Below, in pieces: positions 7,371-51,107 of a stretch of DNA of 51,107 nt. Within the stretch, counting starts at the first letter, position 1. Each line of letters starts with the position of its first letter. The notes under the pieces are model-generated. The model was not told the origin of the DNA. It saw nothing but the letters and a program-made list of their open reading frames with translations, and ran no database searches. Origin of the DNA: a virus; IMG/VR virus record IMGVR_UViG_3300021420_000048, positions 1 to 51,107 of that record. One strand, written 5' to 3'. A program made the position numbers and the translations under genes.

Positions 7371-8070
7371 CTTCGAAAGTACTGGATTGAATGTAGCAGA
7401 AGATCATGTTATTGAAGTTGGCATGGCTCTTTATAGCACCGGCCAACGTAAGATTCTAGAGTCGTCTGGTTATCTTGTAAAATCAGATAAACCAATCTCG
7501 GAAGAAATTACGAAAATCACCGGTATTCATCCTTCGGCTGTTGAGAAGTTTGGCTTTGATTCTAAAGATGCTTTGCAAACTGTCATTGAGTTGATTCAAG
7601 TAGCGGATGCCGTAGCCGGTCAAAACGTAATTCAGTTTGATAAGAGAATGCTTGAGTCGTGGGGCAAGCGAGAGTCCGCGTCGATCCCGGATAAGCTCTG
7701 GCTTGATACACTAACCGATCTTCCTGGTGTAGAAGGTAAGCATCTCGGGTATATGGCAGCCGACGCCGGTTTCCTAAACCTATTCCCGCACTCCGCCTTG
7801 ACAGATTGTTTAACAGTTGTTAAACTGTTAATGGGGCACGATATCGATAAGGTAGTTGAGCGAGCCAAGAGTCCGTTGGTTGTCCTGCAGGCGCATCAAG
7901 ACCGAGCTAATAACGATCAAGCTAAGAAGCTTAAGTTTCGGTGGAAGCCAGAACGAAAGATCTGGTGGAAAGTTGTAAAGGAAATGGATGTTGATGAACT
8001 TGTGAAGTCGGCCCCGTTTGATATTTCAATAGAGAAGGATACTCCAGTAGAGGAGCTTTGGTATGATTAA
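7351..8070 (+). CDS. DnaQ-like 3'-5' exonuclease
   Basis: DEDD-type motifs: D7-F-E9 (IDFESTGL) and an ITGIHPSAV segment typical of DnaQ, a NVIQFDKRML second motif, and the late HSALTDC block carrying the final His/Asp. After the nuclease domain (about 1-165) comes a 70-residue basic tail. It could proofread for the phage polymerase, which has its own exonuclease domain, or process DNA ends. GGAGG site 7 bases upstream. Confidence 0.8.
   Translation: MLVLSIDFESTGLNVAEDHVIEVGMALYSTGQRKILESSGYLVKSDKPISEEITKITGIHPSAVEKFGFDSKDALQTVIELIQVADAVAGQNVIQFDKRMLESWGKRESASIPDKLWLDTLTDLPGVEGKHLGYMAADAGFLNLFPHSALTDCLTVVKLLMGHDIDKVVERAKSPLVVLQAHQDRANNDQAKKLKFRWKPERKIWWKVVKEMDVDELVKSAPFDISIEKDTPVEELWYD
7810..7831 (+). 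repeat. Perfect 9-bp inverted repeat inside a gene
   Basis: TTAACAGTT, GTTA, AACTGTTAA. It lies in the exonuclease gene and overlaps a promoter-like pair, TTGACA (7798-7803), 17 bases, TAAACT (7821-7826). It could be an operator or an RNA hairpin, or could arise by chance from the coding sequence. Confidence 0.4.
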
Positions 8071-8314
8071 ACCTAAAAAGAAAAAGACGGTAACTGAAGC
8101 GGCGGCAGTTTTAGATGAAGTATGTCAAAATTGGAACGGGAAGGGGTCTGTTTATGCTCTTACAGTTCGTACTGCTCGCCGACAGTTTAAGGGTCCAATT
8201 TTTAATATAGCCGCTTGGTTAAAATTTAATTACGGTCCGCTATACAGTGGAGAAACTGAGGCAGATTGGATTAGAAGTGCAAAAGATGTTCTTAGAATTG
8301 CGCAAATCCGATGA
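8063..8314 (+). CDS. Hypothetical protein, 83 aa
   Basis: Overlaps the exonuclease stop by eight bases; a basic start (MIKPKKKKTVTEAA) leads into a globular, Trp-containing part. No family recognised. Confidence 0.65.
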   Translation: MIKPKKKKTVTEAAAVLDEVCQNWNGKGSVYALTVRTARRQFKGPIFNIAAWLKFNYGPLYSGETEADWIRSAKDVLRIAQIR

Positions 8315-8357
8315 CCGACATTGAGTAACTATTTTCCATAATAGAGGAGCTTTTGGT

Positions 8358-8561
8358 ATGACTGAAAAAGACGAATGGGTTACTTTTGAGAAATACCCTA
8401 TTGAGTATAAACTGAATCTTATAAACCGAGTCGAGGGTTACCGAGATCAGTTAAAAGAGTTTTTAGCAGATGTTGAATTTACAGATTTGTTGGATAATCA
8501 AGGTCTGGAAATCGTCGTGCCAGATCTTGAGAAGATGGTTCACGACATTCTGAATAGCTAA
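8358..8561 (+). CDS. Hypothetical acidic protein, 67 aa
   Basis: GAGGAGC ribosome site. Predicted mostly helical and acidic. Lies directly before the SSB-like gene. Function unknown. Confidence 0.6.
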   Translation: MTEKDEWVTFEKYPIEYKLNLINRVEGYRDQLKEFLADVEFTDLLDNQGLEIVVPDLEKMVHDILNS

Positions 8562-8587
8562 AACTTAAAAATCTAAAGGAGAAACAC

Positions 8588-9106
8588 ATGCCTATCATTG
8601 CGCCAAAAACTTACGAACAGCCTAAGCCGGGTATTTATCTCGGAACCGTTATTGACGTGGTCGATCTCGGCCTTATTCAAGGCCAGAACGGGCCGTACGC
8701 AGCCCTTAGAATCTTTTGGGTGCTTGATAAGAATGATTCAAAAGGCTACCCGTTTAAAATTATGCAAACCGCTCCAGCGGTTATTAGCAGTGCTTCCAGC
8801 AAGAAGAAATCTCGTTTGACACTTCTCGCCAGTAAAGTTTTGGGTACTGATTTTTCTGGTAAGACTTTTGACTCTGAGCTTCTTATGGGAAGATCAAACC
8901 AACTTTGCGTCGAACAGAACGGGGAATACGTTAACGTGACTGGAATTCTCCCTTTCCCCGAAGGCGCGGTTGCTCCTAAAGCTCCTGCAAACTTCGTTCG
9001 AAATAAAGACATAGTAGATAAGCAGACCTTTTCTTCGGCAGCGACTCAGCCTGTTCGTGCACAAATTCCTCCGGTTGAGATTTCGGACGAAGACATTCCT
9101 TTCTAG
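8588..9106 (+). CDS. Single-stranded DNA-binding-like protein
   Basis: A compact beta-rich domain of about 130 residues is followed by a flexible linker and a C-terminal ISDEDIPF. That acidic tail ending in Pro-Phe is the hallmark by which SSB proteins recruit partners. No exact SSB family is recognised from the core, so the call rests on tail, length and position just before the primase. AAAGGAG site. Confidence 0.65.
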   Translation: MPIIAPKTYEQPKPGIYLGTVIDVVDLGLIQGQNGPYAALRIFWVLDKNDSKGYPFKIMQTAPAVISSASSKKKSRLTLLASKVLGTDFSGKTFDSELLMGRSNQLCVEQNGEYVNVTGILPFPEGAVAPKAPANFVRNKDIVDKQTFSSAATQPVRAQIPPVEISDEDIPF

Positions 9107-9111
9107 ATGAA

Positions 9112-9238
9112 GTTGCGGAGTAGCTCTCCGCTGATTTCAGGGGAGTAGGAAGAGCGGCTCGCTCGAAAGACGAGCACAGCAGAGTTAGATGTGAGGGAAC
9201 CCTGCGGGGTATTCACATAATCCTCTGCATGTCGCAAC
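9112..9238 (+). ncRNA. Candidate multi-branched structured RNA
   Basis: Fills the longest gap in the window, between the SSB-like and primase genes. GTTGCG (9112-9117) pairs with CGCAAC (9233-9238) and closes the domain. Within it: GCTCG-AAAGA-CGAGC (9161-9175), and a long arm of GCAGAG/CTCTGC (9179-9184 / 9223-9228), ATGTGA/TCACAT (9189-9194 / 9213-9218) and ACCC-TGCG-GGGT (9199-9210) with a UNCG-type tetraloop. A fourth hairpin GCGGAG/CTCCGC (9115-9131) overlaps the closing stem, so the two may be alternatives. It could be a riboregulator of the primase or a free RNA. Confidence 0.6.
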
Positions 9239-24194: not shown

Positions 24195-24511
24195 AGCACC
24201 GAGGTGTTGAAGGAGGAACGATTTATGGTGAGCCTCTGTGCCGAACATGCCATCATTCGATCTATATCAAAGGAAAGGCTGAAGGGCAAGAGATGCTGAT
24301 GTGCGAATCAATAGGTTTTATGTTAAAAGCACCGCTGCCGTTTGAAGCATACGAGTGTTCTAGTTATTCAGATAAGCGCTTGCCATCTTTGCATGATATG
24401 GAAAAGACGGCTTGGATAATTCAGTCAGACGCTATTAATAACAAGATTGGTTTTGTGTCTCCAAAGCACAAAGAAGCACACAGGAAAGCTCTAGGCAGAG
24501 ATGACGACTAA
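24191..24511 (+). CDS. Hypothetical protein with CxxC, 106 aa
   Basis: ATGA overlap with the transferase before it. LCRTCHHS, MCES and ECSSYS may form a metal site. Lies between two glycosyltransferase genes and overlaps the second by 11 bases. Unknown function. Confidence 0.65.
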   Translation: MKHRGVEGGTIYGEPLCRTCHHSIYIKGKAEGQEMLMCESIGFMLKAPLPFEAYECSSYSDKRLPSLHDMEKTAWIIQSDAINNKIGFVSPKHKEAHRKALGRDDD

Positions 24512-25202
24512 ATTGCTCATTGCTGTGAAGAGCTGTCAACAAGATGCGGATCGCGGCTATCATGACGCGATCTTAGAGACTTGGGGCAAACGACTTTGGG
24601 AAGTAAGTAATGACGCGGATATACTTTTCTTTACGGGGAGTAATCACCCCGGCTTCACGAATTTTTGTATAGCTTATGATCTTCCCGAAACAATCTTAAT
24701 GGATGTTTCCGATGATTATAATAGCTTGCCTTTCAAAACTAGAGAGATACTACGATACGTGCTGGTGCATAGGGATCACGATTACGTTTTTCTCTGCGAC
24801 ACGGATACCTATATCGTCCCTGACCTTCTCCTGAAGTCAGGCTTTGAGCAGTATGATTATTCGGGTCGTTTCGGAAATTCTCCGGCAATTGGTACGATGT
24901 TCCCTTATACTGATGGTCGGGGAATTCACTATGATGCCTGTCATCCTTGGGCCTCCGGCATGGGTTATTTTCTGAGCCGAAAGGCTGCTGAGATTGTAGC
25001 GGATACAGAACCGGATCTATGGGCCGAGGACATGTATGTGGGGGCCTCACTGGGGCCATATATCCAGTCTGGAGAGATTACTGCGGCCAATCTCGACATT
25101 GAGAACAAATGTTTATGGCACTTCCCGAAAAGGCTGTACGGCGGCCATCCATACGATCTTAAATTTGGTTGGATGAAGCAGATGCAGGAACAACACGGAT
25201 GA
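24501..25202 (+). CDS. GT31-like glycosyltransferase (copy 1)
   Basis: LLIAVKSC followed by ILETWGKRL, FLCDTDTYIVPD (DxD metal motif), GMGYFLSRKAAEIV and AEDMYVG match the GT31 (beta-3-glycosyltransferase/Fringe-like) layout. About 233 residues, soluble, no membrane segment. Two related genes lie at 30043 and 32890. Confidence 0.75.
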   Translation: MTTKLLIAVKSCQQDADRGYHDAILETWGKRLWEVSNDADILFFTGSNHPGFTNFCIAYDLPETILMDVSDDYNSLPFKTREILRYVLVHRDHDYVFLCDTDTYIVPDLLLKSGFEQYDYSGRFGNSPAIGTMFPYTDGRGIHYDACHPWASGMGYFLSRKAAEIVADTEPDLWAEDMYVGASLGPYIQSGEITAANLDIENKCLWHFPKRLYGGHPYDLKFGWMKQMQEQHG

Positions 25203-25400: not shown

Positions 25401-25516
25401 AAAAAAAAGGAGCTTTAATCATCGGAACCGTAATAGCTATTGGCATCGTTGTGCTAGTGTGCTATGCTGTGGCGATGTTTGTTACAGATCTTCTTTTGTA
25501 TTGGCTGGGATCATGA
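25397..25516 (+). CDS. Single-span membrane microprotein, 39 aa
   Basis: MKKKGALIIG then a long hydrophobic helix. Coupled to the previous stop (ATGA) and to the fucosyltransferase start (ATGA). Third of a chained trio of tiny membrane proteins. Confidence 0.5.
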   Translation: MKKKGALIIGTVIAIGIVVLVCYAVAMFVTDLLLYWLGS

Positions 25517-26259
25517 CTATTGTGCGGCTCACAGGTGGGCTCTGCAACACGATGTTTATGTACGCTTTCGGCCGTTCTTTGTCTGTAAGGAAAAATGTCT
25601 CAGTGGATTTCCACTGGTGTCGGTCAACCTGGGACTATTCTTTGGGAGCCTATAATGTAAAGCCAAATCTAGTCGAGCCGTTTGCGGGGATGAAAGTCTA
25701 CAACGAGAAAAGCACGGCGCACGATCCTGAAGTTCTTAATGCTCCAGAAGAGACATATTTTAAGGGCTACTGGCAATCAGAGAAATATTTCGAAGAAGAC
25801 GTAATCAGGAAAGAGTTAGTGCTGTCTCATCCTACCGAGGAGATGCTTGCTAAAGCCAAAGAAATTCGTAATTATGACAATAGCGTCTTCATCCACGTTC
25901 GGCACGGGGATTATTTGACCACACCGGAGACCAACGCCTACCACGGGGTACTACCGTACGATTACTATATACGGGCGATAGACTACATGCGAACTAAAGT
26001 GACAAACCCTGAGTTTTTCGTCTTCTCCGATGATATCGATTGGTGTAGGACAGTCGGTCTTCCTGGTACTTTCATTAATGCGGGCTTGCACGGTGATCTG
26101 TACCTAATGAGATGCTGTAAACACGCTATTATAGCGAACAGTTCCTATAGTTGGTTTGGGGCGTGGTTGGGAAAGGCTGAGATAGTAATGGTTCCGAAGC
26201 CGTGGTTTAGGGCGACGGCTTCTGGGGATATTATTCCCGAGCGGTGGAAAAGGATTTAG
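25513..26259 (+). CDS. Alpha-1,2-fucosyltransferase-like (GT11)
   Basis: LTGGLCNTMFMYAFGRSL at the start, VFIHVRHGDYL (GDP-fucose binding, HxRxGD) and IANSSYSWFGAWLG are the GT11 signatures. 248 residues with the ATG that overlaps the upstream stop; a longer upstream frame exists but has no signal. It should transfer a GDP-activated deoxyhexose, most likely fucose. Confidence 0.85.
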   Translation: MTIVRLTGGLCNTMFMYAFGRSLSVRKNVSVDFHWCRSTWDYSLGAYNVKPNLVEPFAGMKVYNEKSTAHDPEVLNAPEETYFKGYWQSEKYFEEDVIRKELVLSHPTEEMLAKAKEIRNYDNSVFIHVRHGDYLTTPETNAYHGVLPYDYYIRAIDYMRTKVTNPEFFVFSDDIDWCRTVGLPGTFINAGLHGDLYLMRCCKHAIIANSSYSWFGAWLGKAEIVMVPKPWFRATASGDIIPERWKRI

Positions 26260-26261
26260 GC

Positions 26262-26891
26262 ATGATAACGAATTTAACGGCAGAAGACCTCATAGCCTTT
26301 GAACGTGAAATTGCTGATTTGTTCAACGCCGGCAAGATTCGATCTGTGATCCATCTATACTCAGGTGGTGAAACTGATTTTATTCGAATCTTTCAATCGA
26401 TACGAGAACAGGATTGGGTGTTGTGCGGTTGGCGCTCACACTACCAATGTTTGCTTAAGGGGGTCCCGCCGGATAAGTTAAAAGAAAAGATTATTGCTGG
26501 GCATTCTATTTCCTTGTGCTTTCCAGAGCATCGGATTTTAAGCTCCGGTATCTTTGGCGGCGTTCTGCCGATCACAGTTGGTCTTGGCATGGCGATCAAG
26601 CGTTCCGGCGAAGACGCGAAAGTTAACTGTTTCGTCGGGGACATGGGTGCAGAGAGTGGTATATTTCACGAGTGCGCTAAGTATTCACAGAACCACAATC
26701 TGCCAATTCGTTTTATAGTTGAAGATAATGGTTTATCAGTTTGTAGCGAGACTAAGAAGGTTTGGGCCTTTGACCGGCCTAGTAGTCAAACGGCTCTTAA
26801 TCCTATCCATCCTAATTCAGTTGTAGATTATTTTTCCTATGAGCCCGGCCGATTTCCCCATGCGGGCAGCGGTGTCCGTGTCCCATTTTAA
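26262..26891 (+). CDS. TPP-dependent enzyme, E1 alpha-like subunit
   Basis: The thiamine diphosphate motif GDMGAESGIFHE ... VEDNG (about residues 126-157), preceded by GIFGGVLPITVGLGMA, matches 2-oxoacid dehydrogenase E1 alpha. At 209 residues it is much shorter than the usual 320-360, and ends PHAGSGVRVPF. The partner gene follows immediately. In secondary-metabolite pathways, E1 alpha/beta-like pairs transfer a two-carbon unit to keto-sugars; that use fits this sugar cassette better than central metabolism. Confidence 0.8.
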   Translation: MITNLTAEDLIAFEREIADLFNAGKIRSVIHLYSGGETDFIRIFQSIREQDWVLCGWRSHYQCLLKGVPPDKLKEKIIAGHSISLCFPEHRILSSGIFGGVLPITVGLGMAIKRSGEDAKVNCFVGDMGAESGIFHECAKYSQNHNLPIRFIVEDNGLSVCSETKKVWAFDRPSSQTALNPIHPNSVVDYFSYEPGRFPHAGSGVRVPF

Positions 26892-26892
26892 T

Positions 26893-27423
26893 ATGAAGTA
26901 TCTTGACGAAATCATTCGGTCGATGAATTATCTGGCGGCAGATAATCGTACTCTATTTATCGGGCAGGCCGTTTTGGTTCCTGGAACTATCATGTCGCCG
27001 ACGCTTGTTAATATCCATCCGGGAAAGAGAATAGAATTGCCAGTTGCAGAAGAGATGCAGATGGGAATATCTCTTGGGTTGGCATTAACTGGGATCATAC
27101 CCGTCTCCATTTTCCCGCGTTGGAACTTCATGCTGCTGGCGATCGGTCAATTGGTGAATCACCTAGATAAGATCTCAGAGATGAGTGAAGGCGGTTACCG
27201 ACCAAAAGTAATCATTCGCACTGGTATTGGATCTCGTAGCCCACTCAACCCTGGCCCACAACACTTAGGAGACTATACAGACGCAATGCGGCTAATGTTG
27301 ACCAACATAGAGGTAATTCGCCTAGATCATCCCGATTGGATTTTTCCAGCGTATGAAAAAGCCTTGAATAGAACTGATGGTAAGAGTACAATAGTCGTAG
27401 AGTACGGTGATCTTTGCAAATGA
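26893..27423 (+). CDS. TPP-dependent enzyme, E1 beta / transketolase-like subunit
   Basis: The pyrimidine-binding domain features are PVAEEMQMGISLGLAL with the cofactor Glu, and VNHLDKISEMS. 176 residues: the C-terminal transketolase domain is absent. It starts two bases after the E1 alpha stop with no clear ribosome site, so coupling is expected. The two proteins should make an alpha2beta2-type enzyme. Substrate unknown. Confidence 0.75.
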   Translation: MKYLDEIIRSMNYLAADNRTLFIGQAVLVPGTIMSPTLVNIHPGKRIELPVAEEMQMGISLGLALTGIIPVSIFPRWNFMLLAIGQLVNHLDKISEMSEGGYRPKVIIRTGIGSRSPLNPGPQHLGDYTDAMRLMLTNIEVIRLDHPDWIFPAYEKALNRTDGKSTIVVEYGDLCK

Positions 27424-28427
27424 ATACTGATATCATCTTTGCCGATGCCGCTAGAGTCTTAGAGGCCGTCAACTTTGACTGCTTAGAAGGCAAGACGGTG
27501 CTGATTACCGGAGCGACCGGTTTGCTCGGCACGCATTTCTTGGCCACCTTAGCCTTGCTGAAGAAGCGAGGCATGAACATATATGCATATGCGCACTGTC
27601 ACTCCCATCCTGCTAGCTATACGCAAGAAATTGCTAAAAATAGCAGAATATTGCTTCACTGTCCTATGTCAGCAGATGTTATTATTCATGCTGCCGGCTA
27701 TGCTCAACCGTCTGTTTTCACGGTGGACCGAGCGGAGACTATTCGAATTAACACCGCGTGGACGGAGCAGCTTTTAGGCTATCTTCGACCTGGCGGAAAG
27801 TTTCTTTTTGTTAGTTCTAGTGAAGTTTATAGCGGCTTAACTGGTTTGGTTGATGAGTCTAAAATTGGAACAACAAATCCATACCATCCGCGATCCTGCT
27901 ATATAGAAGGCAAGCGTTGTGGTGAAGCGATCTGTTACGCGCACCGCTTGTCTGGAATTGACGCCAAATCGGCTAGATTGTCCTTGACGTACGGTCCCGG
28001 TGTCCGTAAAGGTGATAAGCGGGCAATGAGTGTATTTATAGAAGAAGCGTTGAGCACAGGTAAAGTCGCTATGAAGTATCTAGGAAAAGAAAGACGAACC
28101 TTTTGTTATGTAAGTGATGCAGTCGAACTGTTGTGGCAAGTATGTTTGCACGGAACTCATCCGATATATAATATCGGGTCTCCTTTGTCTACCTCTATGC
28201 GAGAAATTGCTGATGTTATTGCTATGGAAACTCATTCGGATTTAGATTGCCCAGAAGATTATGAAGAGTTGCTAGGTTCTCCAGAAGGTGCGACGATGGC
28301 TATTGGTTTAGCGGGGTGTGAATTTAATAAGAGCCAATATGGATGGGGCGCAAGCCGATACGTGGAATTCAAAGAAGGGTTGGAGTCTACTATTGAGTGG
28401 CATCGCGGTTTGATGGAGAGTGCATGA
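27420..28427 (+). CDS. NAD-dependent sugar epimerase/dehydratase or reductase (SDR)
   Basis: GATGLLG at residues 31-37 binds the dinucleotide, SSSEVYS carries the catalytic Ser, and Y161-x3-K165 (CYIEGKR) completes the extended-SDR site. Family members oxidise, dehydrate or epimerise nucleotide sugars. Position between the TPP pair and the DegT-family gene places it in the same pathway. Confidence 0.85.
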   Translation: MNTDIIFADAARVLEAVNFDCLEGKTVLITGATGLLGTHFLATLALLKKRGMNIYAYAHCHSHPASYTQEIAKNSRILLHCPMSADVIIHAAGYAQPSVFTVDRAETIRINTAWTEQLLGYLRPGGKFLFVSSSEVYSGLTGLVDESKIGTTNPYHPRSCYIEGKRCGEAICYAHRLSGIDAKSARLSLTYGPGVRKGDKRAMSVFIEEALSTGKVAMKYLGKERRTFCYVSDAVELLWQVCLHGTHPIYNIGSPLSTSMREIADVIAMETHSDLDCPEDYEELLGSPEGATMAIGLAGCEFNKSQYGWGASRYVEFKEGLESTIEWHRGLMESA

Positions 28428-29605
28428 AAAATATTACGTTGGGCCATTTAGACGTTAGTGTTCGTGGAAAAGAATACGTCAACGATGCTTTAAATACTAA
28501 TCGTCTTTCTTACGGTAAGTACACAAAAAAGTTTGAACAACAGTTCGCCGATTTACACGGTTGCAAGCATGGCGTATTCATGGCAAGCGGCACATGCGCC
28601 TTACAAGTCGCGCTAGCGGCATTGAAGGAGGTCCACGGCTACCAAGACGGAGACGAGGTCCTTGTTCCAGCGACAACGTTTATAGCGACTTCCAATATTG
28701 TTATCCAGAATGGGCTAAAACCTGTATTCGTTGATGTCGATCCAGAAACCTATAATATTGATCCATACCAGATTAGTTACAGATTGACTGGCAGAACAAA
28801 AGCGATCATTCCCGTGCATCTTTTCGGCTTGCCTTGTGACTTCAAAATGCTCATGAGTCTTGCTAAGATTTATAGACTTCAGGTTTTAGAAGATTCTTGC
28901 GAAGCTGTTGGCTCAACATTTAATGGCAAACCGGTAGGAAGTTTTGGTGATCTGGCCTGCTTCAGCACATATGTGAATCATCTAGTCGTAGGAGGGGTTG
29001 GTGGTCTGGTTTTGACAAACGACGATCAATTAGCAGAAATCTCCCGTAGCCTGATGGCCCACGGTCGAGATTCAGTGTACACCAATATCGATTCCGATGA
29101 CGGCTTATCTGGTGCAAAACTGCAGAATATTATCGAGCGCCGATTCCGATTTGAGCGTTTAGGGTATTCATATCGGGCGACGGAAATGGAAGCTGCTATC
29201 GCATTATCTGAGCTAGAAAGATACGAAGAGAACGTAGCAATTCGGCGCAGAAATGCTGCTCAGTTGATAAAGCTACTGGAGCCTCTGCGAGACTATATTC
29301 AGTTGCCCGTTATTCCTATAGGTTTAACGCATTCGTACATGATGTTCCCGATTGTTTGTAAACCTGGCGTAGAACGTGATAGACTTTTATTGTTTCTTGA
29401 AGAGCATCAAATAGAAACTAGATATTTATTTCCCTTGCTTTCACAACCGGTATATGCTAAGAGGTATCCCTGCTTAGCGGAGAAATATCCGGTAGCGCAG
29501 CATCTGGCTCAAAGCGGTTTCATGATCGGGATACATCAAGGCTTAGTTGAAGAAGATATAATTTACGTCTCGGACGTAATTCATGAATATTTTGGAGAGG
29601 CTTAA
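28424..29605 (+). CDS. DegT-family PLP enzyme with His for Lys, probable sugar 3-dehydratase
   Basis: 393 residues with the DegT/DnrJ/EryC1 fold: SGTCALQVAL phosphate-binding loop, FVDVDPETYNID, VLEDSCEAVGS with the cofactor Asp, and FSTYVNHLVVGGVGG where the Schiff-base lysine should be. The residue at that position is H186. Replacement of this Lys by His defines the ColD/E1-type 3-dehydratases, which remove the C3 hydroxyl of 4-keto-6-deoxy sugars. So a dehydratase is more likely than an aminotransferase. Coupled to the SDR by ATGA. Confidence 0.8.
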   Translation: MKNITLGHLDVSVRGKEYVNDALNTNRLSYGKYTKKFEQQFADLHGCKHGVFMASGTCALQVALAALKEVHGYQDGDEVLVPATTFIATSNIVIQNGLKPVFVDVDPETYNIDPYQISYRLTGRTKAIIPVHLFGLPCDFKMLMSLAKIYRLQVLEDSCEAVGSTFNGKPVGSFGDLACFSTYVNHLVVGGVGGLVLTNDDQLAEISRSLMAHGRDSVYTNIDSDDGLSGAKLQNIIERRFRFERLGYSYRATEMEAAIALSELERYEENVAIRRRNAAQLIKLLEPLRDYIQLPVIPIGLTHSYMMFPIVCKPGVERDRLLLFLEEHQIETRYLFPLLSQPVYAKRYPCLAEKYPVAQHLAQSGFMIGIHQGLVEEDIIYVSDVIHEYFGEA

Positions 29606-30042
29606 TGTACATTTTTGACATCGACGGCACAATTGCTGACTGCTCGCACAGATTGCATTTTATCCAAAGCCAGCCGAAAGATTGGAAAGCATTTTTCGCT
29701 GCCTGTGTAGACGATAAGCCAATTGTTGAAGTAATCGAGTTAATACGCATATTAAATATTTGCGGTTTCAAAATTATGCTGGTGACAGGACGTAGCGACG
29801 AATGCCGAGATAAAACGTCCGACTGGCTTTATTCAAACGATGTTCCGTACAGCCGTATGTACATGCGTAAAGCTGGTGATCATCGGCCGGATAACGAAGT
29901 AAAGGGAGAACTGCTAGATAAACTTATACACGACTGGCGATCTTTTTCAATTCGCGGTGTGTTCGAAGATCGCAATCAAGTGATAGAGATGTACCGCAAA
30001 CGTGGTTTGCGAGTGTATCAAGTTGCGGACGGGAATTTCTAA
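29605..30042 (+). CDS. HAD-family polynucleotide 3'-phosphatase (PNKP phosphatase-like)
   Basis: D5-x-D7-G-T (FDIDGTIAD), VTGRSDECRDKT, MRKAGDHRPDNEVK and FEDRNQVIEMYRKRG match the phosphatase domain of T4-type polynucleotide kinase/phosphatase. The kinase domain is absent (145 residues). It should remove 3'-phosphates from nucleic-acid ends before ligation. TAATG overlap with the preceding gene. Confidence 0.8.
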   Translation: MYIFDIDGTIADCSHRLHFIQSQPKDWKAFFAACVDDKPIVEVIELIRILNICGFKIMLVTGRSDECRDKTSDWLYSNDVPYSRMYMRKAGDHRPDNEVKGELLDKLIHDWRSFSIRGVFEDRNQVIEMYRKRGLRVYQVADGNF

Positions 30043-30741
30043 ATGAAGACGCTGATCGCCGTAATTTCCTACGACGGTGACGCCTGTAACGGGAACCACC
30101 AAGCTATACGCGATACGTGGGGGAAAGACTGCCACGCTGTCGGCGCTGATCTATTCTTCTTCGTTGGCCGTCGCAGTCGTGAGTTCGTGCCGAAATCGGA
30201 CGAGATTCTCGTTGAGTGGCAGGAACACCGAAAATGCTCGCACGATTGGTGGGTTGATGTTAAGGACTGCTGTGAGGATTACTGGCAAACACCGACGAAA
30301 GCAATCCTTCGTTGGTCGCTTGAAAATGGCTATGATTTTACCTTTATGATTGAAAATGATACATTTTTGATCCCTCAAACATTCATGACATCTGGATGGG
30401 TAGTCTATGATTTCTGCGGCCAATTCGAGCCTACTGATACTCCGCTAGGTGAAAAGACGAAGTACGAGGTTTATGGCGAAAATATTTACCCGTCTCCTGA
30501 GCCTGGAATCGGCTATATCATCTCTAGAAAAGCAGCTAGAATTATCGTGGAGGCACCACTTACCCATCACACCATAGGAGTGTATTCCGGGCAGATGCTC
30601 GGACCTTATATCTCCTCCGGAGAAATTCTTGCTCGCAATATGGACTTAGGTTCTTGGCATTACCGACGAGAAAAGGGAGAAGGCTATCCCGTTGGCAGTA
30701 ATTGGCAGAAGGAGATGTACGAAAAATATGCAAGAGCATAA
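30043..30741 (+). CDS. GT31-like glycosyltransferase (copy 2)
   Basis: Same plan as the genes at 24501 and 32890: AIRDTWGKD, then FMIENDTFLI at the metal-site position, where the usual DTD reads END, and GIGYIISRKAARII. Starts directly after the phosphatase stop. The changed metal motif may alter donor use or activity. Confidence 0.7.
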   Translation: MKTLIAVISYDGDACNGNHQAIRDTWGKDCHAVGADLFFFVGRRSREFVPKSDEILVEWQEHRKCSHDWWVDVKDCCEDYWQTPTKAILRWSLENGYDFTFMIENDTFLIPQTFMTSGWVVYDFCGQFEPTDTPLGEKTKYEVYGENIYPSPEPGIGYIISRKAARIIVEAPLTHHTIGVYSGQMLGPYISSGEILARNMDLGSWHYRREKGEGYPVGSNWQKEMYEKYARA

Positions 30742-30742
30742 A

Positions 30743-31558
30743 ATGTACAAAGCAGTCACTTATGGTAGTTTCCAGATTGACTTGCCAGAATTTACCTGGG
30801 GCGTGAGCGTTTCCGTGGACGTGTTTAACTTCTCTGATCAGTCGCCTTACCGGGTTTATTGGCAGACCGAACCAAACGAGATTCTGAACCACGAAGAGAA
30901 ACTTATCCGGAACAGTGGTTTCTATGATTTAATTTTGTGCTGGAATTCTCAAGTGTTAAGCCAATGCGGCAACGCCGTTCTGTTTCCTCCTGGGGCCGTT
31001 TGGACCCAGGAAAGTGACACATCGCAAAAGAAGTTCGCCATCTCCTATTTGATCAGTTCTAAAACTTTATGCGGTCCTCAGAAGTATCGCCAAGATATAT
31101 TTAATAGTCTCCCAGCGGTCATTGGGCCGTTAGAACTTCCAATTACGAAGTATAAATCGCCTCCTTGGCTTCCGGATAAGCGTAGCATGTTAGTCCCATT
31201 TCAATACAGCATCGTTATGGAAAATGCTATGCAAAATAACTACTTTACGGAAAAACTTAATGATTGTATGGCGACTAAAACGATTCCTATTTATTGGGGG
31301 GCACCGAACATCGGTGAATTTTATAACCCAGAAGGAATTTTATCTTGGGAAGGTACGGGAGATTTGTTTAATCTCCTTGAAAGAATCAATGAAGGCTACT
31401 ATCGGTCTAGGAAAGATGCGATTGAAGAGAACTACCAGCGGGCTTTGAAGTATGCGGATCGAACTGGAAACGTAGCTCGGGCTATTATTGACTCCTGGAC
31501 GCCAAAGATAGCTAGGGTTCACAGTGGGCAGCCAAACGAGAGCGGAGAACGAAGTTGA
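30743..31558 (+). CDS. GT10-like alpha-1,3-fucosyltransferase
   Basis: The C-terminal donor domain has FQYSIVMENAMQNNYFTEKL and KTIPIYWGAPNIGEFYN, the GT10 signature for GDP-fucose. The N-terminal half is the acceptor domain. An in-frame ATG 15 bases upstream is also possible. With the GT11-like gene this gives two fucosyl-type transferases in one island. Confidence 0.8.
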   Translation: MYKAVTYGSFQIDLPEFTWGVSVSVDVFNFSDQSPYRVYWQTEPNEILNHEEKLIRNSGFYDLILCWNSQVLSQCGNAVLFPPGAVWTQESDTSQKKFAISYLISSKTLCGPQKYRQDIFNSLPAVIGPLELPITKYKSPPWLPDKRSMLVPFQYSIVMENAMQNNYFTEKLNDCMATKTIPIYWGAPNIGEFYNPEGILSWEGTGDLFNLLERINEGYYRSRKDAIEENYQRALKYADRTGNVARAIIDSWTPKIARVHSGQPNESGERS

Positions 31559-32902: not shown

Positions 32903-33555
32903 TCGCGATAGAATCTTGCTGGGCGCACACATCGCGACACGCGGCGCAAGAAGAGACTTGGCTAAAAGATTTAACTGTTGACTATAGATTTTTTGTAGGA
33001 TGCTTAATGAAGTTAGCTGGCTCTCTTCCTCTGAATACGACTGAATTAGCTGTTGATGATTCTTATCATGCGCTGTCAATGAAAACTCGAGAAATCTGCC
33101 GTTGGGTACTTGACAACGATTATGACTTTGTTTTTAAAACAGATACGGATACGCTAGTTTCGGCAAGAAATTTACTTGACAGCGGGTTTGAAAAGCATTA
33201 CTATTATGGTGGCGAGAACGAAGACGATATGCCAGCAAGTCTTTTGGGCGTTTTTCCAAATATGCGAATTCAGTTTGCAAGCGGCGGCGCAGGCTATTGG
33301 CTTAATCGGCGAGCTGCTATGCTTGTCGCATACGGACCAACGGTAACCTCGCCAGCGGAAGATGTTTATGTGGCGGCTATCTTAAAGGCTAATGACATTA
33401 CTCCGGTTTGGTCATCAGGGTATAGATGGCGACCAGGAGAAACGGTTGACAAAGACATGATTTCTTTGCATTTGTCTAGTGCTTTGCAGAAGCCGTACGA
33501 AGCTGAGCAGATGTACAAAGGCTATAAAAAGTTGAAGGATCGTGAAAATGTATGA
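32890..33555 (+). CDS. GT31-like glycosyltransferase (copy 3)
   Basis: ILVAIESCW, QEETWLKDL, VFKTDTDTLVSA (DxD) and GAGYWLNRRAAMLV with PAEDVYVA follow the same order as the other two GT31-like genes. Overlaps the end of the preceding nuclease by 13 bases. Last glycosyltransferase of the island. Confidence 0.75.
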   Translation: MRILVAIESCWAHTSRHAAQEETWLKDLTVDYRFFVGCLMKLAGSLPLNTTELAVDDSYHALSMKTREICRWVLDNDYDFVFKTDTDTLVSARNLLDSGFEKHYYYGGENEDDMPASLLGVFPNMRIQFASGGAGYWLNRRAAMLVAYGPTVTSPAEDVYVAAILKANDITPVWSSGYRWRPGETVDKDMISLHLSSALQKPYEAEQMYKGYKKLKDRENV

Positions 33556-34396
33556 AACTAAAATAATTGCCGATTCTGTCTGCAACGGAAATCGTCTCAC
33601 TACGATGCAATTAACTCATCCGAGGATCGTACATTCGGAATTCATGACGCATTGTATGTTTGCCCGTAACGCGTCTTCAAGCCGCGCCATACCTATTAAG
33701 AAAATGATTGAACGAGTGCTAACCGATCCTTTCATCCCGATTTACTGGGGTAAGAATCAATCCGGTATGCAGGCGGCTAAAGAACTTTGCTTATATGATC
33801 AAGCTTTGGCTCGTAGTTTATGGCTGGATGCTCGAGACCAAGCGGTAAAGAATTGTGAACTTTTAGACTCTTTAGGACTTCATAAGCAGATTTGTAACCG
33901 TCTTCTAGAACCTTTTGGCTGGATTACTGTTTGTGTTACAGGCGATTCTGGCGCATGGTCTAATTATTTTGCATTGCGCTGTCATCCGGATGCTCAACCG
34001 GAGATTAAGAAACAGGCGGAGATGGCTAGGGATATTTATTTTGAATCAAAGCCAGAAGAACTAGAAATGGGAGAGTGGCACCTTCCTTATTTAACAAAGG
34101 AAGAAGAGATTAATCTCGGCTTGCAGGGTCAAACGGAAGTCAGAATTAGTATAAAAGTTTCTGTTGGCCGGTGCGCTCGTACCAGTTATTTAACTCAGGA
34201 AGGAACAAGAGATCAGCAAAAAGACATAGACCTCCATGATCGATTGGTTAATTCCACGCCGATACACGCCTCACCTCTTGAACACGTTTGTATAGCTACG
34301 GGTAACAATCAGCGCTACGGGAAATATACTGGATGGAAGAGTTATAGGCATATGATACCAGGAGAATATGTGACGAATTATGAGAGGCCGCAATGA
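33548..34396 (+). CDS. ThyX-like flavin-dependent thymidylate synthase
   Basis: THCMFARNASSSRAIP resembles the THR-x-FSRN-x-SSRAIP form of the ThyX signature found in many phage members, but with Cys where Arg is usual. YFALRCHPDAQPEIKK and a C-terminal ASPLEHV also fit. Makes dTMP from dUMP with FAD and folate. Neighbours are RNR and dUTPase. The ATG is chosen over a GTG two codons upstream for its spacing from AAGGAT. Confidence 0.75.
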   Translation: MYETKIIADSVCNGNRLTTMQLTHPRIVHSEFMTHCMFARNASSSRAIPIKKMIERVLTDPFIPIYWGKNQSGMQAAKELCLYDQALARSLWLDARDQAVKNCELLDSLGLHKQICNRLLEPFGWITVCVTGDSGAWSNYFALRCHPDAQPEIKKQAEMARDIYFESKPEELEMGEWHLPYLTKEEEINLGLQGQTEVRISIKVSVGRCARTSYLTQEGTRDQQKDIDLHDRLVNSTPIHASPLEHVCIATGNNQRYGKYTGWKSYRHMIPGEYVTNYERPQ

Positions 34397-36255
34397 GACC
34401 TTGGAGTAACCTAGCTGCTATCGTAGCTAGACGAACTTACTGCAGAAAAGATTCCGGCGTCCTAGAAAACTGGGACCAAGTTATAGAGCGTGTTGTTTAC
34501 GGCAATGTAAAAGGACACAATGTACCAGAAGCAGAAGTAAAGGAGTTGCTTCGGCTCGGGAAAGAACGAAAAGCGGTAGTAGCCGGCAGAGGTTTATGGT
34601 TTAGTGGTACGGACGCTCACGCAAGACTAGGGGGTGTAGCGCTTAACAACTGCTGGTTTAATACTGCGAACAATTGGGAAAATTTTGTATTAACACAAGA
34701 TTTGCTTATGCTTGGCGGCGGCGTCGGTATGAGCGTTGAGCAGCGTTATACTAGCAAACTTCCGAAGGTAAAAAACAATGCCACTATTCTTCACAAAGCA
34801 ACAAAAGATGCCGATTTCATCGTACCCGATTCTAGAGAAGGTTGGTGCGAACTTACCTATCGGATATTGGAATCGTACTTTGTTACTGGTAAGGGATTCA
34901 GCTACTCCACCGTTTGTTTACGTGGGTATGGCGAGCCGATTAAAGGTTTTGGTGGAGTTGCCTCTGGACCATTACCCGTTATTCATTTTGTTGAATCTAT
35001 CAGCCGCATTCTTTCTGGACGGAACGGTAATCATATCCGACCTATCGATGCGGCGGATATCACTACAGCAACTGGCGAAATGGTCGTGGCGGGAAATGTT
35101 CGACGCAGTGCGATCATTATTCTTGGCGATCCGTGGGACAAAGTATATCTGCAAGCTAAACGCTGGGATTTGGGACCGATCCCTACGCACCGAGATAAAG
35201 CAAACTACAGTGTGGTTTGTGATGACGTAGACGATCTTCATCCTTCCTATTGGAAGACTTTTGAAAATGGCGAAGCTTACGGGCTTGTTAACCGCAAAAC
35301 TATTCGGAAATATGGTCGTATGGGGGAGTTTAAAAAAGATACCGCAGAAGGTGTCAATCCCTGCGGCGAAGCAACACTAGAGCCAAAAGAACCCTGTAAT
35401 CTGCAAGAAATTGCTTTGCCAAATCTTAATGATGTTGATGAGTTTGAGCATGCAGCTCGATTGATGCACCGTTATGGTAAACGAGTTACGATGGATAAAT
35501 ATCATCACGAAGATATACAAGATGTTGTATATCGAAATAGGAGAGTAGGAACAGGGATAACTGGTTGCTTAATTTCGCCATTATTTTCGCCAGAAATACT
35601 AGATCGAGTTTATGCCGCGATTCAAGATGAGAATCGGTCATATTCCAAAGAACTAGGCGTTCCTGAGAGTATTCGAACAACAGTAGTAAAGCCATCCGGT
35701 ACTTTGGGTAAAGCACTAGATTGTAGAGGCTTTGAAGGTATTCACGGCGGCTGGAGCCGCTATTGCATTCAAAGAGTTCGATTTTCTTCTAATGACGCTT
35801 TGATACCTTTGCTACGGGAAGCTGGGCACTATATGGAGCCAGTACTTAAACTTGATGGCAGCAGAGATCAAGGAACACTTGTGGTTGATTTTTATATAGA
35901 GACACCAAAAGGTGCGCCGGTTACTGACGAAGATTTTGATACTTGGAAACAGTTAGATGTTCTCAAGATGGCACAGAAGCACTGGGCAGACCAGGCGGTG
36001 TCTGTATCCATTTATTACAAAAGAGAGCAGATTTCCGAAATAAAGAAGTGGCTTCGTGATAATCTAGATGAAATAAAGACAATTAGTTTCCTGGCTCAGA
36101 GTGATCACGGCTATGCTCAAGCGCCAAAGGAAGCTATTAGCAAAGAACAATTTGATGTTCTATCTGCCAAGATTAAACCTATAGACACGAATTTGATCGG
36201 AGACGGTGAGCTAGAAAATCTCGAATGCGAAGGTGGTGTATGTCCAGTAAAATAA
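34393..36255 (+). CDS. Adenosylcobalamin-dependent (class II) ribonucleotide reductase
   Basis: NPCGE with C324 and C335 eleven residues later, C87 (NNCWF) and the C-terminal pair C612/C617 (CEGGVC) reproduce the cysteine spacing of the monomeric Lactobacillus-type triphosphate reductase. VVKPSGTLGK is the P-loop-like substrate segment. 620 residues against about 740, so insertions or the allosteric part are reduced. Needs a B12 cofactor from the host. ATGA overlap with the ThyX-like gene. Confidence 0.9.
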   Translation: MRPWSNLAAIVARRTYCRKDSGVLENWDQVIERVVYGNVKGHNVPEAEVKELLRLGKERKAVVAGRGLWFSGTDAHARLGGVALNNCWFNTANNWENFVLTQDLLMLGGGVGMSVEQRYTSKLPKVKNNATILHKATKDADFIVPDSREGWCELTYRILESYFVTGKGFSYSTVCLRGYGEPIKGFGGVASGPLPVIHFVESISRILSGRNGNHIRPIDAADITTATGEMVVAGNVRRSAIIILGDPWDKVYLQAKRWDLGPIPTHRDKANYSVVCDDVDDLHPSYWKTFENGEAYGLVNRKTIRKYGRMGEFKKDTAEGVNPCGEATLEPKEPCNLQEIALPNLNDVDEFEHAARLMHRYGKRVTMDKYHHEDIQDVVYRNRRVGTGITGCLISPLFSPEILDRVYAAIQDENRSYSKELGVPESIRTTVVKPSGTLGKALDCRGFEGIHGGWSRYCIQRVRFSSNDALIPLLREAGHYMEPVLKLDGSRDQGTLVVDFYIETPKGAPVTDEDFDTWKQLDVLKMAQKHWADQAVSVSIYYKREQISEIKKWLRDNLDEIKTISFLAQSDHGYAQAPKEAISKEQFDVLSAKIKPIDTNLIGDGELENLECEGGVCPVK

Positions 36256-47256: not shown

Positions 47257-48954
47257 TTACTTTTCAACCGGAGCGGCTTTCGCGGCTGTTTTAAGGGCGC
47301 CGGATATTAGATGCTCAGGAGAATTCAACCATTTGCTTATAATAGGAACGGCTGCGACCATTGGGTGCCCGCTAGCCACTGCTCCGACTCCACCAATTAT
47401 ATCCCCGATGCTGATCGGAGCTTGTCGGCCATACACAACAGCTCGTTTTTCAGATACTCGTTGCAATTGATTGAGCGCCCCATACTGCTTACGCAGGTCC
47501 ATATGCTCGGGACCGATCTTCTCCTCAATTTTTCCGCGCATTGCATCAGCGGCATCTTGCAACATACCCATTTCTGGGTGAGCCGTAGCAACGCCAAACT
47601 GTTCTGACGGACTGAGTTTGTAAAAGTTCCGAAGTTGCTGATTAAAGTCTGTCACGGCTCGACTAGCTTCGGCAATAGGGTAGTCGCCTTTAAACGTATC
47701 AGCCCATTTGTCAATTCGTGCAGCAGTTTTTGGCTGATGTTTACGAACCGAATCATTGACGTTGTCCTTGATCGACTGAGCTATCTCATCACCTGATATT
47801 ACTACTCCAGCCTTTGCCGCATCCGCAACAGCGGGGGCAATCTTACCGGTCCACAATTGATCCTTTGCATTACTGGCAGCGTCGGCCATATCCTCTGGTG
47901 TTTTAATTGGACTGATTTTATTTTGCTCAACCAGTCGAGGAAGGATTGACTCAACATTTTCCTTAAAGTATTTCTCACCCACATAAGGTTTAAGAGCCTT
48001 TTCAAGGGACTCTGCCGGGTTAAGACCTCCGGTTCCAGTAGCTCGCTGCGCCTTCTTAACCGCCCCAGGAATTTCACTGGCTGTGTCTGCCAGTCCTTTA
48101 GCACCAAGGGTGCCCTGAATAGCCCCACCGACGCGACGTTCTGTAGCCTGCTGTTCGGTCTCTCCTGGCTGTTGAGGGGTAAGTGCTTCTTTAGCACCCA
48201 TCGCAGCAAATCCGGCCCCCGTACCGAGTTCTGCAGTTCGAGCAGACGCTTTAAGCAAAGGAGAGACCCCTGCAGCAGACCGAACGGCTTGAGCCCCTTC
48301 AATAGCTCCGCCGGCAAGACCCGTAACTGCCCCGCTCTTTGCCGCCTCACCAATTGGTGCTCCGTGAGCCATAGCTTGAGCCGTACCGGCCGTAGCCATG
48401 CGCATCGCGCTAGTCCCTATGTGCAAAGCTTTGGCTATTGACGGATACTTCTCAAGCATATCCGTAAGTTTGGTCGCCTGAGTCAATTTATCCGTAAGAG
48501 ACAGCCCTTTTAACGCTTCGTCGCCAAGAAAGAATTCTAACACGCCTTCGCCGACTTTTCCAATGCTCTCTTGCGCTCCGTGCGCCTGAAGATAATCAGG
48601 AGATTGTAAAGGTACTTGCGGAACTGAAACTCCAGCGGCATTCAAAACCTTAGAACCGTATGCACCGATCGTATGCCCAGTATCAAGTAGTCCTTTAAGT
48701 GCTCCGACAACTGCTGGCGGAACGCCCCATTTCTCATATTCCATTAGTCCAGGAGTGCCTGTCGGCGTACCCGAAGTGGGTACGGTTGTCCCCGAATCGG
48801 AAGCAGTCGTATCAATCGGCGTAGCGTCTTCAAACCCTTTAGGCAACGGCGGAAGTCCTGAAGAGGCCGGCGCAGATTGTGCTGGCGCAGCAGACGGAAT
48901 AGGCGTAGCGTTTTCGAAGCCTGGAGGAAGCGGCGGAATCTGTCCGTTACCCAT
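47257..48954 (-). CDS. Large virion-like protein, 565 aa
   Basis: The N-terminus has two copies of PPLPxGFExATPI (residues 7-19 and 35-47), a proline-rich motif of a type I associate with phage internal proteins. The rest is Ala/Gly-rich and helical, with hydrophobic stretches (about 180-300, and GDIIGGVGAVASG near the end) that could insert in membranes. This composition resembles ejected internal virion proteins. One-base stop/start overlap with the upstream gene. Confidence 0.6.
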   Translation of the reverse strand: MGNGQIPPLPPGFENATPIPSAAPAQSAPASSGLPPLPKGFEDATPIDTTASDSGTTVPTSGTPTGTPGLMEYEKWGVPPAVVGALKGLLDTGHTIGAYGSKVLNAAGVSVPQVPLQSPDYLQAHGAQESIGKVGEGVLEFFLGDEALKGLSLTDKLTQATKLTDMLEKYPSIAKALHIGTSAMRMATAGTAQAMAHGAPIGEAAKSGAVTGLAGGAIEGAQAVRSAAGVSPLLKASARTAELGTGAGFAAMGAKEALTPQQPGETEQQATERRVGGAIQGTLGAKGLADTASEIPGAVKKAQRATGTGGLNPAESLEKALKPYVGEKYFKENVESILPRLVEQNKISPIKTPEDMADAASNAKDQLWTGKIAPAVADAAKAGVVISGDEIAQSIKDNVNDSVRKHQPKTAARIDKWADTFKGDYPIAEASRAVTDFNQQLRNFYKLSPSEQFGVATAHPEMGMLQDAADAMRGKIEEKIGPEHMDLRKQYGALNQLQRVSEKRAVVYGRQAPISIGDIIGGVGAVASGHPMVAAVPIISKWLNSPEHLISGALKTAAKAAPVEK

Positions 48955-51107
48955 TATTGACCTTTTGCTACGAGCGGTTTGCCGGTTGCGGCATCAACCC
49001 ACGCACCGTTTAAGACCCCGATCTTTTGACCCGAAGGAGTTATGTGCATATTTGTAATTCCAGAAACAGTTGAAGGCTGTCCATTTTCTGGGGCTAATTG
49101 GTTAAGCACCTTTTTAGCATCCGGCATAAGAAACCGATTTTCAAAACTGGTCATGCCAGCGCCCTTGTTTACGTTCCACTGATTCTCATAAGACCCGATC
49201 TTGCTTCGCAGCAATTTAACTGTTTCGGCTGCGTTGGTTTTAAGCTGAGCAGCACCCAAATTAGCATTGAAATCTTCTTCGTTGGTACCGCGTTCTCCAA
49301 CGCTACCGCCGCTAGCCAAGTAAGCTTTAGTAAGCTCAGGACCCAGCCGATGAACGATGGTGTTGAAAGTTGTAACTGGAGTCTTACCAACCTCGACACC
49401 ATATCTGTTTGCAATGGAATTGAGCACTTTGACGTTTCCATTATTAAGCGCATCAATTGCATCATTCAAGACTCCAACGTGACCCAGAGCTACGTTAACG
49501 GCGTTGATTTCCTGAGAGCCCTTGCCAGTAGTAAGAGACTTGGTAAGATCGTATCTTTGTGTATTAAACTGCGGATCAGCCTGAGCGACCTCTTGATTGA
49601 TACGAACCCAGTACGGAGAACGAGCCATAGTCCCGCTAGGAGACGGAGATCGACCTTCGAGAATCTGACGAACCACAGGAGCATCGTCCGGTATAGAAGA
49701 GAGATAATCGTCTCCTCTTTTAGTTCTATCTCCTGTTGGAGTCGCAGTTCCGGCCTGCAAATTCATAGCTTCTTGCCGCATAGAATTTGCAATATTTCTC
49801 TGTTCTTTGGTACCCTCGGCATTCTCTACGTGCTCCATATCCTTACTGATTTCGTCATAATCTTTTTGCGTAGCATCATCAGGCAAAGTATAAGGCTTAG
49901 GAAGCGGTTTGCCTGGATTTAGAACTTGATAACGATCAGTCAATCGTTGATTAAGTTGTGAAACCTTTTCTCCTAAAGGAGGATTCTTTTCATCACCAGC
50001 ACTTTCCTTTATTAGCGCAGACCAGTTTTTCTGCCCGCCATAATATTCCGGTACTTCAATGGCAGCCTTGGGAAACTTCGCAGCTAGAGTTGGATTGCCT
50101 ACAAACGTCTCGAGAGCTTTTACTGGATCCAGTCCAGGAGTCTGACCAAGTACGTGCAGCCACTCAGGACTCCGGACCAAGTTATTTGCTTCGGTCTTTT
50201 CGGCTTCGATACCCGCATCAGCTAAAGTTTTTGCCCGAGCCGCCTCGACCGTTTTGGCTCCTGCAACTTGCTGCTTGAGCCAATTCCAAGTCTGTCCGGG
50301 AATTACAGTGCCCGCAGAGATATCCTTACCAGCATATTTTTTAAAGTCAGCAACGTCCTCCGGTTCTACCGTCATCTCTTTGGGAATTCTCAAAAGAGTA
50401 AAAGTAGGCTCATAGATAGGCAAATTTGTTTTAGGATCGGTGCCGACAATTTTCTTGCCGTCTCGCAGCGGATTCATAGTCGCCGTCTTGCTGATTTCAC
50501 CAGAACTAATCTTTTGCTGCAGTTCCCCCTGAGTTAAGCCGTTTGCAACTACTTCAGCAGGATCGTCTGCTTCGGTTGTTTGCCGAGCAATCTCATTTAT
50601 GTCGTGCTTAGCTATTTCGTCTTGCGAAGCCCAATCCAACTGTTGAGTTACACGCTCTTGTTGAATCTTATCGTTATTGGCATGCGCTTGCAGGATATCC
50701 ATCTTTGTCTTTTCATCAGCATTCTGAATAGCCTGTTGCGCAGCTTTATCAACTTGTTCTTTAGCCATCTGGCGTTGGTTATTAATATTCTTCGATGTTC
50801 CAGCAACGCCTTGAATGATCCCAGGACCGGCACCTTCTGTGCTGATATTTCCAAGATTAGCCAAAGTTCTCTGCGCAGCGCCAACTAAACTGGCTGCCCA
50901 ACCCATAGGTTGTCGAGGATTAATGCCAAGTTGATCGGCTGCTTGCATTACTTTATGCCCAAATGATCCAGGAGGAGGCATATTCGGATTAGATCGGGTC
51001 TGAGAAAGCGGAATACCAGCCAAGGAAGTCTGGCCCGCAGTAGCCGAAGCGGGGTTCAAATCGGAGTCGGTAAAAGGCTGCGGCGTTGGGTTAGGGGCAT
51101 TAACAAA
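48954..51107 (-). CDS. Large virion-like protein (5' truncated), at least 717 aa
   Basis: The frame is open to the right edge: 16 more codons precede the first TTG, so the real start is outside the window. Long helical, Gln/Ala/Asp-rich protein; residues near the C-terminus (AVNVALGHVGVLNDAIDAL ... NSIANRYGVEVG) recall a conserved block of phage/prophage proteins of unknown role. With the following gene it probably forms an internal or tail-associated pair. Confidence 0.65.
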   Translation of the reverse strand, partial: FVNAPNPTPQPFTDSDLNPASATAGQTSLAGIPLSQTRSNPNMPPPGSFGHKVMQAADQLGINPRQPMGWAASLVGAAQRTLANLGNISTEGAGPGIIQGVAGTSKNINNQRQMAKEQVDKAAQQAIQNADEKTKMDILQAHANNDKIQQERVTQQLDWASQDEIAKHDINEIARQTTEADDPAEVVANGLTQGELQQKISSGEISKTATMNPLRDGKKIVGTDPKTNLPIYEPTFTLLRIPKEMTVEPEDVADFKKYAGKDISAGTVIPGQTWNWLKQQVAGAKTVEAARAKTLADAGIEAEKTEANNLVRSPEWLHVLGQTPGLDPVKALETFVGNPTLAAKFPKAAIEVPEYYGGQKNWSALIKESAGDEKNPPLGEKVSQLNQRLTDRYQVLNPGKPLPKPYTLPDDATQKDYDEISKDMEHVENAEGTKEQRNIANSMRQEAMNLQAGTATPTGDRTKRGDDYLSSIPDDAPVVRQILEGRSPSPSGTMARSPYWVRINQEVAQADPQFNTQRYDLTKSLTTGKGSQEINAVNVALGHVGVLNDAIDALNNGNVKVLNSIANRYGVEVGKTPVTTFNTIVHRLGPELTKAYLASGGSVGERGTNEEDFNANLGAAQLKTNAAETVKLLRSKIGSYENQWNVNKGAGMTSFENRFLMPDAKKVLNQLAPENGQPSTVSGITNMHITPSGQKIGVLNGAWVDAATGKPLVAKGQ

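Follow-up and report, generated by a model that had tools for sequence, protein, structure and literature searches.

We suggest that five genes at positions 25513–29605 of the virus record IMGVR_UViG_3300021420_000048 (analysed as one stretch of 51,107 bases, here called the window) form a cassette for finishing and transferring a 3,6-dideoxy sugar with a two-carbon branch, the GDP-linked equivalent of yersiniose, and we give this reading a probability of roughly 0.6. The open reading frames (ORFs) lie end to end on the + strand and encode a GT11 glycosyltransferase, a short E1-alpha-like and a short E1-beta-like subunit of a thiamine diphosphate (TPP) enzyme, a short-chain dehydrogenase/reductase (SDR) and a DegT-family enzyme. 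The enzyme families, catalytic residues, gene coupling and co-occurrence in other viruses are evident from sequence comparison. A few O-antigens and antibiotics contain sugars with a two-carbon branch. A branched dideoxy sugar had been proposed for these genes in a first-pass annotation; the 3-dehydrase-type DegT, the plausible TPP pair, the SDR, the GT11 and the neighbourhood link between the SDR and TPP carboligases speak for that proposal, while the two-carbon branch at C4, the nucleotide-sugar acceptor and the role of the SDR are putative.

In the route that we infer, from its substrates and the sequence of its steps to the site of the branch, the product and the target glycan, GMD would supply GDP-4-keto-6-deoxy-D-mannose. 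Close relatives encode this enzyme beside the cassette; in the window virus it would come from the host or be encoded in sequence that is missing. DegT, working with pyridoxamine phosphate and with His186 in place of Lys, would take off the C3 oxygen as ColD does, and the E1 pair would use TPP to decarboxylate pyruvate and bring an acetyl carbanion onto the ketone at C4, which would become a tertiary alcohol with a 4-C-acetyl group. The SDR would then reduce the side-chain ketone to 1-hydroxyethyl or, less likely, prepare or epimerise the keto acceptor; because it retains the Glu of dehydratases and decarboxylases and is nearest to UXS1, its role is the least certain step of the mechanism. Finally, GT11 would transfer the finished sugar to a glycan, either on the host surface or on the virion.

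Gene coupling and catalytic residues

With likely starts chosen from homologues and from the junction sequence, the cassette begins with the GT11 gene (25513–26259, + strand, as for all five; 248 residues; Pfam PF01531, Glyco_transf_11, 4.4e-25; phrog_2644, 1.1e-39). The E1-alpha gene (26262–26891, 209 residues; PF00676, E1_dh, 9e-15), whose start was taken from homologues, begins 2 nucleotides past the GT11 stop, and 1 nucleotide separates it from the E1-beta gene (26893–27423, 176 residues; PF02779, Transket_pyr, 6e-7), which encodes the pyrimidine-binding domain only. ATGA overlaps join E1-beta to the gene of the SDR, which is of the extended type (27420–28427, 335 residues; PF01370, Epimerase, 1e-33) and the latter to the DegT gene (28424–29605, 393 residues; PF01041, DegT_DnrJ_EryC1, 4e-94). 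ORFs, Pfam matches and junctions thus agree with the overlapping or near-adjacent starts that had been noticed in the first-pass annotation. Since gene order and residues are kept across many viral lineages, the cassette is not a chance arrangement.

GT11 is the family of GDP-fucose alpha-1,2-fucosyltransferases, and the window protein has the domain together with HVRHGDY at residues 128–134, an HxRxGDY-type sequence that we take to be the GT11 motif; a sequence search found no PDB relative of it.

The His-for-Lys replacement that had been read in the DegT enzyme, a DegT/DnrJ member of the fold-type-I pyridoxal phosphate (PLP) enzymes, is also confirmed. Aligned to solved aminotransferases, perosamine synthetase and 3bcx/3bb8 (CDP-4-keto-6-deoxy-glucose 3-dehydrase, as the wild type and as a variant whose His is replaced by Lys), the window protein places His186 on the catalytic Lys/His column, and it retains Asp157. 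His stands at the column of the PLP lysine in 43 of the 44 distinct readable DegT relatives from loci fetched with the E1 query, the sole Lys belonging to a second, distant DegT 4 kb away. The ColD structure 3gr9 matches at 3.5e-46, and the best NCBIfam model is RfbH (7e-73, score 246 against a cut-off of 423). The CxC..C iron–sulfur (Fe-S) motif is absent from the window DegT and from 67 of 70 distinct viral relatives, and because these cysteines are missing the pattern is that of ColD, not that of E1/RfbH. These alignments support the prediction that the window DegT is a ColD-type sugar 3-dehydrase. A CDP-linked dehydrase of the E1/RfbH type was considered and rejected, as the protein lacks the Fe-S cysteines of 3bcx.

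The profile of the E1-alpha subunit matches pyruvate dehydrogenase (PDH) E1-alpha best (5e-18), and that of the E1-beta subunit matches PDH E1-beta best (1e-14), covering residues 6–176 of its 329; the former corresponds to the PP domain and the latter to the PYR domain of the alpha-KADH2 superfamily. In E1-alpha, His31, which aligns with the conserved His of HLYxGxE, and His200, in a PHAG motif, are invariant in the family, His200 presumably being the second active-site His; His60, a GDM motif (Asp127) and Asn156 are also present. In E1-beta, Glu53 and His124 fall on the columns of the catalytic Glu and His of E1-beta, and both are invariant in the family alignments. A model of a natural alpha–beta fusion relative (L016; pTM 0.91) resembles transketolase in overall fold, with a beta half that matches PDH E1-beta at ~2 Å. 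A catalytically competent PDH-E1-like TPP enzyme is therefore a plausible, supported assignment as far as conserved residues and fold can indicate.

The E1-beta subunit lacks the C-terminal (transketolase C) domain. In PDH this domain binds E2, and its absence fits acyl transfer to a small acceptor rather than to lipoamide. Membership of a PDH complex is unlikely, given the missing E2-binding domain, and the ORFs examined included no E2.

The motif GDM...N, found in 87 of 97 loci, marks the subfamily of the window, and GDG that of the fused, cyanophage-like proteins. Many of these loci are near copies, so that raw locus counts overstate independence; counted instead as lineages distinct at 80% identity, DegT with His accompanies the GDM type in 18 of 23 lineages versus one of seven for the GDG type (Fisher p = 0.004).

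Related cassettes and known branching systems

The nearest cassette, L018, has the gene order GT11-GMD-E1a-E1b-SDR-RmlC-DegT, and its proteins are 66% (E1-alpha), 70% (E1-beta), 62% (DegT) and 55% (SDR) identical to those of the window; its GMD scores 498 bits and passes the TIGR01472 cut-off. GMD, an RmlC-like epimerase and GT11 occur together with E1a-E1b-SDR-DegT in L018/L102, L103 and L155, and L103 and L155 have the L018 gene set with GMD placed downstream. Considering that these nearest relatives carry GMD, GDP-4-keto-6-deoxymannose and a ColD 3-dehydrase are pointed to, GMD being present in the L018, L103 and L155 cassettes and absent from the window. In two siblings, L104 and L161, the order is GT11-GMD-SDR-RmlC-DegT and the contigs (109–186 kb) are free of an E1 pair; because these siblings keep the rest of the set, the E1 pair appears to be an optional extra step on a colitose-like route. 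Cassettes with and without E1 make the role of the pair directly testable.

Among known systems, GDP-colitose synthesis (GMD, ColD, ColC and a GT11-type transferase) is a better comparison than CDP/dTDP-type routes, both from the GMD of the relatives and from the lack of Fe-S cysteines. The nearest relatives unite GMD, a His-type PLP 3-dehydrase without those cysteines, an SDR and GT11; unlike the colitose route, the cassette has a TPP pair, and its relatives have an RmlC-like epimerase, which is, like GMD, absent from the window; the cassette SDR is UXS-like.

In the synthesis of yersiniose A, a sugar of Yersinia O-antigen, the TPP enzyme YerE adds a two-carbon branch to CDP-4-keto-3,6-dideoxyglucose (PMC12247030, PMC4753412), so that, as we propose for the cassette, a 3,6-dideoxy-4-keto nucleotide sugar gains a two-carbon branch. 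YerE, however, is a single flavoprotein of acetolactate-synthase type acting on a CDP-sugar, whereas the cassette has a pair of short subunits of PDH-E1 type and, judging by context, would use a GDP-sugar; and the CDP-linked E1-type 3-dehydrase has the Fe-S cysteines that the cassette DegT lacks. E1 alpha/beta pairs that branch keto-sugars are on record in the literature; in-vitro carboligation has been shown for KbDH-alpha/beta of kibdelomycin (alpha-KADH2), which couples pyruvate to cyclic ketones (PMC12247030). For the alpha-KADH2 pair of aldgamycin there is knock-out and feeding evidence; branching has been proposed for EvdU5/EvdS3 of everninomicin, beside the UXS-like SDR EvdS6, and split transketolases have been proposed for miharamycin and amipurimycin (PMC12247030, PMC10338323, PMC4753412). 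The alpha-KADH2 systems (KbDH-alpha/beta, aldgamycin, AviB1/AviB2, EvdU5/EvdS3) resemble the cassette, as likened by description, in setting a PDH-E1-like alpha/beta pair among deoxysugar genes. They belong to bacterial antibiotic clusters, whereas the cassette is viral and its subunits, of 209 and 176 residues, are without the E1-beta C-terminal domain.

The fused proteins of cyanophages S-SM2 and P-TIM68 (phrog_34187) likewise combine short E1 alpha and beta domains within phage sugar clusters, with 36–37% identity in the alpha part; unlike the cassette pair they are single chains with a GDG motif, beside Zn-alcohol dehydrogenase and kinase genes, and neither a DegT nor an SDR of the cassette type was found in the stretch read.

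The SDR supplies evidence that is independent of the E1 query. A search with the SDR alone gave 35 distinct viral family members, 33 of them in loci with TPP subunits: the E1 pair in 7, a split transketolase in 26 (one with the C-terminal subunit only) and neither in 2; in 26 of the 35 the gene immediately upstream of the SDR encodes a pyrimidine-domain subunit. We read this as a family in dedicated partnership with TPP carboligation. An obligate dependence of the SDR on the E1 pair was rejected, in view of the siblings L104 and L161 and of the split-transketolase partners; nor is a separate E1-positive SDR clade supported, the E1-negative pair L104/L161 being nested among E1-positive SDRs.

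In L108–L129 and other IMG/VR loci, split transketolase pairs (an N-part of ~240 and a C-part of ~290 residues) adjoin the same SDR family upstream, and some of these loci also have GMD, DegT and GT11, a second viral TPP–SDR arrangement.

We offer as a tentative generalization that environmental viruses may commonly carry a C-branched-sugar module, in which a dedicated SDR works with either of two exchangeable two-subunit TPP carboligases (a minimal PDH-E1 for acetyl branches, a split transketolase for hydroxyacetyl branches) on GDP-deoxysugar routes, remodelling host or virion glycans with sugars that no virus is known to use. If true, this would provide a source of small two-subunit carboligases making tertiary alcohols; it would also offer a testable way for phages to alter surface glycans, which could block rivals or hide virions.

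Weighing the alternatives

Several observations weigh against the GDP-linked branched sugar. Neither GMD nor RmlC is found anywhere in the 51-kb window, on which ground a self-sufficient, complete pathway within it was rejected; the window may be a fragment. The canonical GDG...N motif of TPP enzymes is replaced by GDM...N in the window, and we know of no enzyme assay on this minimal E1 family. The SDR retains the Glu of dehydratases and decarboxylases (SSSEVY, Glu135, with Tyr161 and Lys165), so that a plain ketoreductase role is not obvious, and most of its siblings pair with a split transketolase, whose expected donor is a ketose, not pyruvate. In addition, many relatives with E1 and DegT have as partners a GHMP kinase (HddA-like), a B12 radical-SAM protein or a nucleotidyltransferase, and because of these partners the sugar may differ by lineage or be a higher-carbon one.

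The alternative that survives best, itself doubtful, is that the TPP pair does add carbons to a sugar but differs from our reading in donor, site or timing. The branch could be a hydroxyacetyl one (transketolase-type) or longer, the attack could fall on a different carbon, or a sugar phosphate could be extended ahead of nucleotide activation. In favour are split transketolase as the partner of most SDR siblings, the HddA-like kinase together with a nucleotidyltransferase in other E1–DegT relatives, and the genes adjoining the cyanophage fused E1 (Zn-alcohol dehydrogenase, kinase and phosphoheptose isomerase). The E1 profiles, however, match PDH E1 far better than transketolase, and the window cassette and its nearest relatives are without kinase and nucleotidyltransferase, the nearest relatives having GT11 and GMD.

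We consider it unlikely that the product is an unbranched, colitose-like GDP-3,6-dideoxyhexose, the SDR acting as 4-ketoreductase and the E1 pair serving something unrelated, e.g. acetaldehyde or acetoin. The gene set of L104 and L161 would be enough for such a sugar, but the SDR family is tied to TPP subunits (33/35 loci) and the E1 pair to DegT with His, as the contrast between GDM and GDG lineages indicates.

There is also a slim chance that the SDR is EvdS6/UXS-like and makes the keto acceptor (e.g. a 4-keto-pentose), leading to a pentose-derived branched sugar as proposed for eurekanate. Among solved structures, UXS1 is closest to the SDR (4e-26), and UXS (UDP-xylose synthase) is also matched in the fold search; moreover, the cluster of EvdS6, whose product is UDP-4-keto-xylose, also encodes a PDH-like TPP pair. 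Against this, the GMD of close relatives already gives a 4-keto sugar, a GDP-6-deoxy sugar fits DegT with His and GT11, and the Campylobacter jejuni reductase 8v4g is also among the SDR relatives in both sequence and fold searches. Least probable is an ordinary amino-sugar cassette with DegT as aminotransferase: perosamine synthetase is the top-scoring solved DegT relative, but an aminotransferase was rejected because His186 replaces the PLP lysine, as His does in nearly all E1-linked relatives.

Distribution and neighbouring genes

The E1 family is common in IMG/VR and rare in the genomes sampled. At least 553 E1-alpha and at least 527 E1-beta relatives were confirmed in IMG/VR, against at least 11 E1 relatives in GTDB genomes by the same method; within one cyanobacterial family the short E1 was found in only 2 of 151 sampled genomes, at ~300 bits as against ~80–120 for ordinary E1. 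In the bacterial copies (a Verrucomicrobiae and an Acidimicrobiales metagenome-assembled genome (MAG), and Prochlorococcus MIT 9314) DegT adjoins the pair, and the matches listed from a plasmid search were all ordinary PDH-like E1 relatives. Should the enzymes prove widespread in viruses, viruses would be a main reservoir of two-carbon branching chemistry. The first-pass annotation gave the activity as one not known from phages: none was found in the literature searched, and searches of the partial open-access library of PubMed Central (PMC) turned up nothing relevant on viral branched-sugar or phage TPP sugar enzymes, but the fused E1 relatives of the isolated cyanophages S-SM2 and P-TIM68 are already annotated, as 'transketolase central region'.

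Further arrangements were seen among the relatives. The gene of a B12-binding radical-SAM protein (~505 residues) directly precedes E1-alpha in L048 (6491–8008) and in most relatives from freshwater, and there E1-beta and DegT are separated by the gene of an HddA-like GHMP kinase; this suggests additional modification of the sugar in such loci, perhaps C-methylation or a higher-carbon skeleton. One virus contig (L069/L070) has two copies of the E1 pair, at 130–1305 and 8001–9156, ~7 kb apart. Fused E1-alpha/beta genes of the cyanophage type, mutually 86% identical, occur on Parcubacteria and Kaiserbacteria MAG contigs (L015 and L016), where they adjoin a gene that clusters with the cyanophage Zn-alcohol dehydrogenase.

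In the window itself, a HAD phosphatase gene of PNKP type (29605–30042, + strand; PF25109, 6e-32; phrog_415, 3e-40) is translationally coupled behind DegT, its start overlapping the DegT end by 1 nucleotide; it is missing from the L018 cassette, and its membership of the pathway is doubtful. A GT10-like transferase (30692–31558, + strand; fucosyltransferase C-terminal domain, PF00852, 4.2e-5, a marginal 23.7 bits versus a cut-off of 23.9) is a possible second user of a GDP-sugar. Upstream, a Galactosyl_T glycosyltransferase gene (24501–25202, + strand; PF01762, 3e-10) belongs to the same glycan region as the cassette.

Elsewhere the virus has primase-like, DNA polymerase, helicase and methyltransferase genes. 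Two large ORFs on the - strand at 47257–51059 (565 and 701 residues), with no PHROG match, are possibly structural genes. A ThyX-like thymidylate synthase (33542–34396) scores below cut-off, and an adenosylcobalamin-dependent ribonucleotide reductase of the RTPR family (34393–36255), matched in three stretches, just below it.

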